Shown: one piece after another, positions 1,134 through 2,848 of the stretch
How positions within the stretch are numbered: the stretch's first letter is position 1
Layout: each line of letters starts with the position of its first letter
NCBI RefSeq assembly: GCF_000332135.1
Contig: NZ_KB235896.1
Span: forward strand, 1,213,465-1,277,464
DNA from: Anabaena sp. PCC 7108
GTDB taxonomy: Bacteria; Cyanobacteriota; Cyanobacteriia; Cyanobacteriales; Nostocaceae
Direction: 5' to 3'
DNA length: 64,000 nucleotides
Notes under the pieces: generated by a model
Seen by the model: the letters and a program-made list of their open reading frames with translations, nothing else
Database searches by the model: none
What the model was told of the DNA's origin: nothing
Translations under genes and position numbers: made by a program

Positions 1134-1161
1134 AAAAAAAAATTCGCTCGCAAGCGCGAGC
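1134..1161 (-). terminator. hairpin plus T-run downstream of the FGE-like gene
   Basis: On the minus strand the sequence GCTCGC-GCTT-GCGAGC forms a 6-bp GC-rich stem with a four-base loop, followed after three bases by nine T. It lies about 55 bases beyond the stop of the FGE-like gene. It fits a Rho-independent terminator. GC-rich hairpins with four-base loops just downstream of the variable region are also a known feature of some diversity-generating retroelement targets, so a dual role is possible. Confidence 0.7.
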
Positions 1162-1215: not shown

Positions 1216-2382
1216 CTAAGTCCTTGCCGCACCACTACACACAACCCGAAAACCGACAACGGCGCTGAAGCCGAAGAGGAAGTTGACGCGAGAAGCAGAT
1301 CGGCAATACCCAGGATTGAAGCCCCACGAACCACCGCGCAGCATTCTTATATTACTATCTGTAGTAATATCTATCCATACGCTTTCATCCATAGGCGCAG
1401 CGTTATAACTATTATGCCCATGGTCTTGACACCATTCCCATACATTTCCGTGCATATCATATAGTCCAAAGTTATTGGCTACTTTAAAACTTCCTACTTC
1501 TGTTGTTTCTCCTCTATAACTTCCTTTAACTCCATTACCATAGATGTAGTTACCATCATAGTTAGCCAAATCTGTTGTAATTGTTTCCCCAAAGTGAAAT
1601 GGTGTGGTTGTTCCTGCACGACAAGCATATTCCCATTGTGCTTCACTTGGTAGGTGATACTCTCTCTTTGTATGGTTTGAGAGGCGTAAACAAAACTCAA
1701 CGGCATCATCCCAAGAAACACCCTCTACAGGGCGATTTGCTCCTTTAAAATAAGATGGGTCAGGATTGAGTTGTTTATTTGCTTTTTGAAAGTGACTAGC
1801 TACCTCTTGCCATTGTGCCTGGGTAACAGGATACTTACCCATAAAAAAGGGTTTTATAATTACTTCATGTTGGGGAGATTCACGTTTAAAATAATCTATT
1901 GTATATTGTTTACACAGTTTCTTGATTTCTTGATCGTCTGTTCCCATTTGGAATTCTCCACCTGGTATATATACCATTTCTAGGTTTATATCTTCAAATA
2001 ATTTCTCGATAAAGTATTGAGTAGGTTGATTATTTATATCTATGCATTGATATGATTTATTTTGGCGAGTAACTTTGACCCCATTTGTTGTATTTGCACT
2101 GACAGTAGCGACTTCAAAATAAGAAAATTTTATGGACTTAGAAGCATCATTCAACATTCGATAAGCATAAGCTTCCAAATCTGGATCATGCTCTTTTCCT
2201 TTAACATTTGTATGAATAAAATTATTTCGTAAATCTTGAAAGAGTTCTTTATGTGTTGCTTCATCAACATACAACCAACCAGGTTCTGCTGCTGTAACCA
2301 TCCGGGAAACTGTAAATAGAACACGGTGTCCTATTATTTTGTCAATACCTGATTGAGATTTATCATATCTCACATCTTGCAC
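1216..2382 (-). CDS. N-terminally truncated FGE-sulfatase-fold protein with a DGR-type variable C-terminus
   Basis: Residues about 135-388 form a formylglycine-generating-enzyme/sulfatase-modifying-factor fold: LEMVYIPGGEFQMGTD, PVTQAQWQEVA, RPVEGVSWDDAVEFCLRLS, YHLPSEAQWEYACRAGT, FGLYDMHGNVWEWCQD, MLRGGSW and GFRVVC. Between RGGSW and GFRVVC (1255-1323) nearly every codon that varies in such proteins is an NNC or NNT codon, as expected if template AAC/AAT codons had been diversified by adenine mutagenesis. The N-terminal 130 residues lack a recognised domain; a KGKE...LEAYAYRML stretch faintly recalls the end of a nucleotide-cyclase domain. The GTG start lies inside the terminal repeat of an insertion-element remnant, so the original N-terminus has probably been cut off. 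Confidence 0.75.
   Translation of the reverse strand: MQDVRYDKSQSGIDKIIGHRVLFTVSRMVTAAEPGWLYVDEATHKELFQDLRNNFIHTNVKGKEHDPDLEAYAYRMLNDASKSIKFSYFEVATVSANTTNGVKVTRQNKSYQCIDINNQPTQYFIEKLFEDINLEMVYIPGGEFQMGTDDQEIKKLCKQYTIDYFKRESPQHEVIIKPFFMGKYPVTQAQWQEVASHFQKANKQLNPDPSYFKGANRPVEGVSWDDAVEFCLRLSNHTKREYHLPSEAQWEYACRAGTTTPFHFGETITTDLANYDGNYIYGNGVKGSYRGETTEVGSFKVANNFGLYDMHGNVWEWCQDHGHNSYNAAPMDESVWIDITTDSNIRMLRGGSWGFNPGYCRSASRVNFLFGFSAVVGFRVVCSGAART
1255..1323 (-). other. candidate variable region of a diversity-generating retroelement
   Basis: Read on the minus strand after RGGSW, the codons are GGC TTC AAT, then GGG TAT, then TCT, then the run GTC AAC TTC CTC TTC GGC, continuing TTC AGC GCC GTT GTC before GFRVVC. 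Third bases are almost all C or T while the first two bases vary freely. This is the mark left by adenine-specific mutagenic retrohoming on AAC/AAT codons. No reverse transcriptase or template repeat was found in this window, so these would have to be elsewhere in the genome. Confidence 0.6.
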
Positions 2383-2699
2383 CTACCGAATAAACCCAGA
2401 AATAGCAGATGCAAATTACAAAAAAATCACAGTGTATCCATGCTAAGTATCCAGGAGTGATAGTCATAAAGATAACGTAAGTGTTGGCAATATTACACAA
2501 AAAATCCCAGAGTGATGTTGATGTAGTGGAAGCAATCGAAGAATATAAAATCAATGCCTATGTTTGCATTTGGGACTAAAAACATGAGAGAAAAGGCGTG
2601 AAATATATCATAAAAAAGCAAGAACAATGCTTGCCCACGCCCAGAAGCTAGTCTACACCCTATCTGAATTGATGCCTATTTTCAGGTGCAAGATGTGAG
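2369..2699. mobile_element. insertion-element remnant with 16-bp inverted ends
   Basis: CTCACATCTTGCACCT at 2369-2384 is exactly the reverse complement of AGGTGCAAGATGTGAG at 2684-2699. The 330-bp segment between has no open transposase, only short broken frames. A third copy of the inner end (GTGCAAGATGTGAG) lies at 29099-29112, next to a decayed smc fragment. This fits a deleted IS or a MITE. Its left end supplies the start codon of the FGE-like gene. Confidence 0.6.
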
Positions 2700-2848
2700 T
2701 TAGTAGAAACCTCATCCATAAGAAATTTTTATGTATATAAAGCAACGGATGTATATAACATCATTACACACAGATATTATCACTCTAAGTCGCTTTTTTA
2801 TAACTCTGGATAGAGGAAATTGGAGAAATTTAATAAAATAGAACTTTA

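Follow-up and report, generated by a model that had tools for sequence, protein, structure and literature searches.

A variable repeat in an FGE-domain gene of Anabaena sp. PCC 7108 is probably the orphaned target of a diversity-generating retroelement of the pANA02 template class

Which diversity-generating retroelement (DGR) has written the variable end of a chromosomal gene whose own genome carries a complete DGR with a different template? The question is raised by an FGE-domain gene in a 64,000-nucleotide stretch of the Anabaena sp. PCC 7108 genome (C2:1213465-1277464), which will be called the window. Coordinates given without a contig are those of the window, and G, L and C numbers are our handles for genomes, loci and contigs. 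The gene and the parts of its variable repeat (VR) are the following.

1216..2382, minus strand: FGE-domain gene, 388 aa.
1228..1341, minus strand: VR, residues 348-385; the best collected template is the template repeat (TR) of the plasmid pANA02.
1255..1323, minus strand: hypervariable core of the VR, 23 codons, 21 of them NNY.
1228..1254, minus strand: constant 3' end of the VR, GFRVVCSGA; the same as in the pANA02 TR except at one template adenine, and different from the resident TR.

The FGE-sulfatase domain (Pfam; C-type-lectin-like) spans residues 135-381 of the 388-aa protein, which bears out the FGE/C-type-lectin fold that had been proposed from the letters of the window. A Pfam search with residues 1-128 gives no match even at E 10. 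The VR is located where a DGR target is expected to carry it, at the 3' end of a C-type-lectin-like gene, inside the last 41 codons, which run from RGGSW through the 23-codon core to GFRVVCSGAART. The stretch 1228..1254 is possibly the homing-site (IMH) end of the VR. In the core, between RGGSW and GFR, 21 of the 23 codons are NNY, compared with 90/169 in the FGE domain preceding the VR; on the frame, the NNC/NNT bias and the RGGSW...GFRVVC blocks the sequence-only reading was correct. A set of 112 FGE genes, window gene included, has been compared in the same way. The 15 rows without a non-adenine change to a template have NNY fractions of 17/24 to 26/26, and the 11 worst-fitting rows still have 13/24 to 25/29. 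Since these ranges overlap, the NNY bias by itself is not proof of a DGR. In this comparison the fit of L087, L088 and L090 is understated, because their own templates are absent from the template set. As far as sequence comparison goes, the proof of a DGR VR is the template comparison and not the codon bias.

Two features are found at the ends of the gene.

1134..1161, minus strand: GC hairpin and T run, with the stem-loop at 1146-1161 (GCTCGC-GCTT-GCGAGC, 6-bp stem, 4-base loop).
2354..2714: imperfect inverted repeat at the 5' end of the gene, with 31-nt arms (2354-2384 and 2684-2714) that are 84% complementary and enclose ~300 nt.

The GC-rich stem with a four-base loop that had been noted after the stop codon as a DGR feature does exist, but a T run lies behind it and makes it more terminator-like. 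GC-rich perfect stems have been found 45-116 bases behind 11 of the 28 verified VRs, mostly followed by T-rich sequence and in two cases with a 4-base loop; none was found behind the resident cis VR. The window hairpin therefore looks like a terminator, with a cruciform role in the DGR as the alternative. At the other end, the GTG start of the gene directly follows an in-frame TAG and sits within one arm of the inverted repeat. Because of this position, the N-terminal part (the first 128 residues) may be truncated, and the presence of the inverted repeat may account for the truncation. The inverted repeat was considered as a multi-copy MITE, and the genome search returned only itself (one copy). 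The window also contains a perfect 15+15 palindrome at 658-687 (TGTAGAGACGTTCCATGGAACGTCTCTACA), which we take to resemble a dispersed repeat, and an imperfect inverted repeat with 24-nt arms at 2847-2909 that is MITE-like by eye. By analogy with the systems in the sections of PMC10907252 and PMC7517822 drawn on here, the window protein is probably a receptor-like component of a conflict or signalling system with a randomised binding face.

Repeat pairs have been sought in 45 loci (5 own, 40 from relatives); the two copies had to differ at the adenines of one of them, and no more than a single further mismatch was allowed in any stretch. Such pairs are found in 24 loci and in none of the other 21. 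When the collected templates are ranked against the window VR, the top place is taken by the G031 TR and then, once that plasmid is included, by the TR of pANA02 (NC_019429.1), a 56-kb plasmid of Anabaena sp. 90 that carries two FGE genes, avd, a reverse transcriptase (RT) and the TR behind the RT. Compared with the pANA02 TR, which is one codon longer, the window VR is changed at 24/31 adenines and at 3/83 other bases, with a gap of one codon (3 nt). It thus differs from this external template almost only at template adenines, and the adenine-directed mutagenesis that had been suspected from the codons is confirmed. The three leftover changes are CGT to CGA (arginine), one base right after the codon gap and one later wobble base. 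This fit is flattered, as the scoring is lenient towards adenine changes and the fit is the best of 54 candidate sequences, of which 10 non-templates were later removed, with some templates present twice among the 44 left. The near-identical G031 TR (locus L082), which is 98% identical to the pANA02 TR over 150 bases, gives 23/30 adenines and 4/84 others, with a Fisher p = 3.6e-14 that is flattered for the same two reasons, the lenient scoring and the choice of the best template.

By the same scoring, the seven worst-fitting rows keep 22-28 non-adenine changes in 75-84, and the 17 FGE genes of the 112-gene set with a template from their own locus show 0-2 in ~80. With any sequence allowed to match, the G031 TR is narrowly outscored by the VRs of two loci in other genomes, L234 and L208, both belonging to the same class. 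The codons for shared amino acids have also been compared. Between the window gene and the 13 best of the 111 genes compared, a fraction of 0.85-0.96 is identical within the VR, against 0.52-0.70 across the gene body; the per-pair p-values lie between 5e-4 and 0.15. For the five rows at the bottom of this comparison the VR identity is 0.19-0.35, below the body value, as expected of other template classes or none.

The genome itself has been assembled into 3 contigs totalling 5,886,741 bases and is 99.95% complete. Three RVT_1 matches are found in it, and one of them has a DGR neighbourhood.

C2:3623270-3625790: resident DGR (L015), 2.4 Mb from the window VR, with FGE target, Avd, RT and TR.

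The resident RT (367 aa, C2:3624515-3625618) lies behind a bAvd protein and the FGE target (735-aa open frame), with the TR after it at C2:3625660, so the machinery does not adjoin the window gene, as had been read from the window. The other two RVT_1 matches lie in frames of 560 aa and 585 aa, which by their size we take to be group II intron proteins. A blastn search of the 3-contig genome with the G031 TR returned no matching TR among its 14 matches. Besides the window VR (75%) and the resident TR (77%), these comprise two more VRs and ten hits that are short and weak, at E 0.2 to 5. With the window VR as query, blastn found no second TR. Neither search thus yields a same-genome template that matches the window VR, and the resident TR fails as one.

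The window VR is, in our judgement, quite probably an orphaned target that was last written by a DGR of the pANA02/G031 class since lost from the lineage. A DGR with a template of the class now present on pANA02 and in G031 would have been the last to rewrite the C-terminus of the window gene, acting either in trans on the chromosomal gene or in cis, at a time when the two were not yet separated. We infer that this DGR was then lost from the lineage, probably together with a plasmid or through decay of its cassette, and that the gene, now presumably inactive as a target, would have been left as a frozen, already diversified binding surface on the FGE/C-type-lectin domain. The resident DGR, having a different template, would not serve it. 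The near adenine-only pattern, the mismatch to the resident TR, the absence of a matching template from the blastn results for the assembly and the decayed cassette of a congener, described below, are observed. Because 3/83 non-adenine mismatches and a one-codon gap are left, the exact template is still unseen and a genus-specific variant of it must be assumed.

The same template match would be seen if a plasmid missing from the assembly carried a matching DGR that still serves the window gene from a distance. The DGR of the best-fitting TR does sit on a 56-kb plasmid, and the window VR has accumulated few non-adenine changes. Against this stand the three contigs and the completeness of 99.95%, the blastn searches without a matching TR, and the RT matches, of which one in three has a DGR neighbourhood and the other two are the 560/585-aa frames. 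We consider a missing plasmid of this kind unlikely.

The template class has also been followed through the family. In a search of 217 family genomes, with three candidates scored per genome and the matches ranked best first, a full-length template copy at ≥95% is found in G031 only, among the matches listed. A template-like copy of near full length that is 84% identical to the G031 TR (G214:C158:17700-17847, L227) lies in a genome without an RT match at 1e-25; it may be a template without RT or the result of an assembly break. VRs of the pANA02 class number 16 in 15 genomes. Those outside G031, 14 in number, carry between 0 and 6 non-adenine changes in 77-79, and the window VR has 3/77 plus the 3-nt gap. 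Neighbouring template classes are ~5-9 positions away from the pANA02 class, and the window VR shows 3 changes to its own class versus 6 for the next one. No RT match at E <= 1e-25 is present in 9 of the 15 genomes with pANA02-class VRs (G001, G026, G086, G087, G088, G089, G091, G097 and G098), including G088, whose VR is perfect (0/78 non-adenine changes). For such perfect VRs the element may be present but unassembled, as assemblies may lack plasmids. The overall tally of 16 genomes with an RT match and 21 without refers to 37 genomes chosen mostly for template matches and is hence no survey.

Variation at the adenine sites has been checked between genomes on other members of the class rather than on the window VR. 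Pairs drawn from 11 ungapped pANA02-class VRs of 11 other genomes, a set that excludes the one-codon-shorter window VR, agree on average at 0.43 of the template adenines and at 0.969 of the remaining positions. In G035, a genome of one contig with its own DGR, a remote VR shows 2/79 non-adenine changes to the G031 TR (pANA02 class). The G035 TR was rejected as the template of this VR (12/74 plus 4 gap bases), as was a second template-like copy in the same genome (19/84). Putative adenine-rich template-like stretches of other classes lie near RTs at L254 and L256 (G090, G094), and both of these genomes carry pANA02-class VRs.

A gene-body tree, with the VR left out, has been built from 63 rows at ≤16% non-adenine mismatch. 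Template-class labels were assigned to 44 rows at ≤11%, of which 2 were unclear and dropped, leaving 42 labelled. At least 8 changes of template class are required on this tree, which has many weak forks and good support for 24/60 inner branches. These changes suggest that a VR is written without regard to the gene body, although part of them may be template drift, since the neighbouring classes are so few positions apart. A VR thus seems to belong to the lineage of its template rather than to that of its gene. The bodies of the G090 and G098 genes, for example, group with the resident cis target (100/93) yet carry pANA02-class VRs. The body of the window gene is nearest to two genes of G003, a congener, with a sister support of 98/85, and this congener contains a degraded element.

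G003 C45, L080:3588-4895: decayed DGR cassette, with an Avd-like frame of 117 aa (by eye) and an RT frame cut at 249 aa with an open frame behind it.

No template pair was found for this cassette in the 8 kb scanned. It lies behind a 1054-aa FGE target whose VR shares the class, length and framework of the window VR. Aligned without gaps, these two same-length VRs differ at 25/114 positions, and 21 of these differences fall on the first or second base of a codon. Within the genus, a template search gave in G003 one 37-base match of 95%, and G001 and G002, of the same genus, contain VR-like sequences and no RT match (E <= 1e-25).

The discordance between gene body and template class would also be expected if the VR had arrived already diversified, by gene transfer or by recombination from VR to VR, with a DGR of the class never present in the lineage. 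The sister gene of the body in G003 (C1) points in the same direction, as it fits another template class (8/82 vs 14/78). However, the two genes nearest to the body belong to the very genome that holds the decayed cassette, and the low identity at adenine sites among VRs of the class (0.43) speaks against a single diversified VR as the source of copies. An arrival of the VR in finished form is therefore improbable.

The resident element is a textbook, complete DGR with RT, Avd, TR and a cis VR changed at adenines only; relative to the TR, the cis VR (C2:3623867) has changed at 20/27 adenines and 0/90 other bases. This completeness would make the window gene a candidate for a live remote target of the resident DGR, and the survey in PMC7517822, in the sections considered here, ties remote targets to the DGR of their genome at >50% identity to the TR. 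The window VR has ~57% identity to the resident TR (67/117) when a one-codon gap is forced; 50/117 positions then differ, 30 of them at non-adenines. The unforced comparison leaves 17/76 non-adenine differences and 13 gap bases, against 0/90 in the cis VR, and the constant 3' end differs as well, so the resident TR is rejected as the writer of the window VR. An active remote target would agree with the resident TR at the non-adenines, and the window VR does not. The rejection holds for the assembled TR unless homing tolerates a foreign template, and we regard service by the resident DGR as very unlikely. The sequence-only reading had called the gene a remote target in trans and had looked to the genome for an RT and for a template differing at adenines alone. 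The gene does lie away from the machinery, and the genome does contain an RT and a TR, but the mismatches to this TR also fall at non-adenines, so that the gene is not a present-day target of the resident DGR and the expectation failed.

The resident cassette is 90.4% identical in nucleotides over 2.9 kb to a cassette in G095, a member of another genus, and the next RTs after that of G095 have 71-72% protein identity to the resident RT. Given this difference, the resident cassette has probably moved between genera, likely in a recent transfer. Two further FGE genes of the genome have been compared with the templates. L016 (C2:3313020-3313736; VR16, C2:3313617) has a core with 21/24 NNY codons, and its best collected TR still leaves 16/82 non-adenine changes; it is perhaps an older orphaned VR. 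None of the collected TRs fits VR17 of the paralogue at C2:4198988-4199698 (24/75 and 25/79 non-adenine changes). Finally, FGE genes are common (matches in 60/60 genomes searched, own included) and many others have raised NNY. The template match nevertheless excludes that the window gene is an unremarkable FGE gene whose NNY codons reflect chance or codon bias, and the excess of NNY in the core over the domain and the split between adenines and non-adenines make this reading practically negligible.

Under the orphaned-target reading, the non-adenine positions of a VR can identify its writer even across organisms, and percent identity to a resident template can point to the wrong one. A broader picture can be offered tentatively, and we would put it somewhat below even chances. 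Plasmid-borne DGRs could be travelling mutators in this cyanobacterial family, with many chromosomal FGE genes as a shared pool of landing sites that are rewritten in trans by any visitor whose template is compatible, the visitor being lost afterwards, diversified receptors being left behind in a frozen state and the targets changing their template class over time. The window gene and G035, like the genomes lacking an RT match, would then be snapshots of such hit-and-run events. If this were general, RT-first surveys of DGRs would overlook a large number of diversified genes, and cyanobacteria would owe part of their DGR diversification to visiting mobile elements.

Published work already covers DGR plasmids of cyanobacteria, among them the one of Anabaena sp. 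90, as well as remote targets and degenerate loci. For a VR with its fitting template in another genus, in a host that keeps a complete DGR of another template, we found no precedent in the parts of the open-licence literature consulted. Vallota-Eastman et al. 2020 (PMC7517822), in the parts relevant here, describe the remote variable proteins of cyanobacterial DGRs and name DGR plasmids, including the one of Anabaena sp. 90. Like these remote proteins, the window protein is cyanobacterial and ends in a C-type-lectin VR that lies at a distance from the RT. They were tied to the DGR of their own genome by >50% identity, whereas for the window VR the same-genome TR fails at the non-adenines and the fitting TR lies in other organisms. 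The pANA02 DGR (NC_019429.1) provides the best collected template, has a TR one codon longer and is absent from the blastn results of the window genome. The degenerate DGR loci of Thiohalocapsa PB-PSB1, as presented in the sections of PMC10907252 used here, contain VRs where the RT or the TR is missing, and the match at non-adenines serves as the test of activity in trans. The window VR resembles these loci in lying where RT and TR are missing and in being judged by its non-adenine match. In Thiohalocapsa PB-PSB1, by contrast, the intact parts are found in structural variants of the same population, whereas the template that fits the window VR is found in other genera, with one copy on a plasmid.
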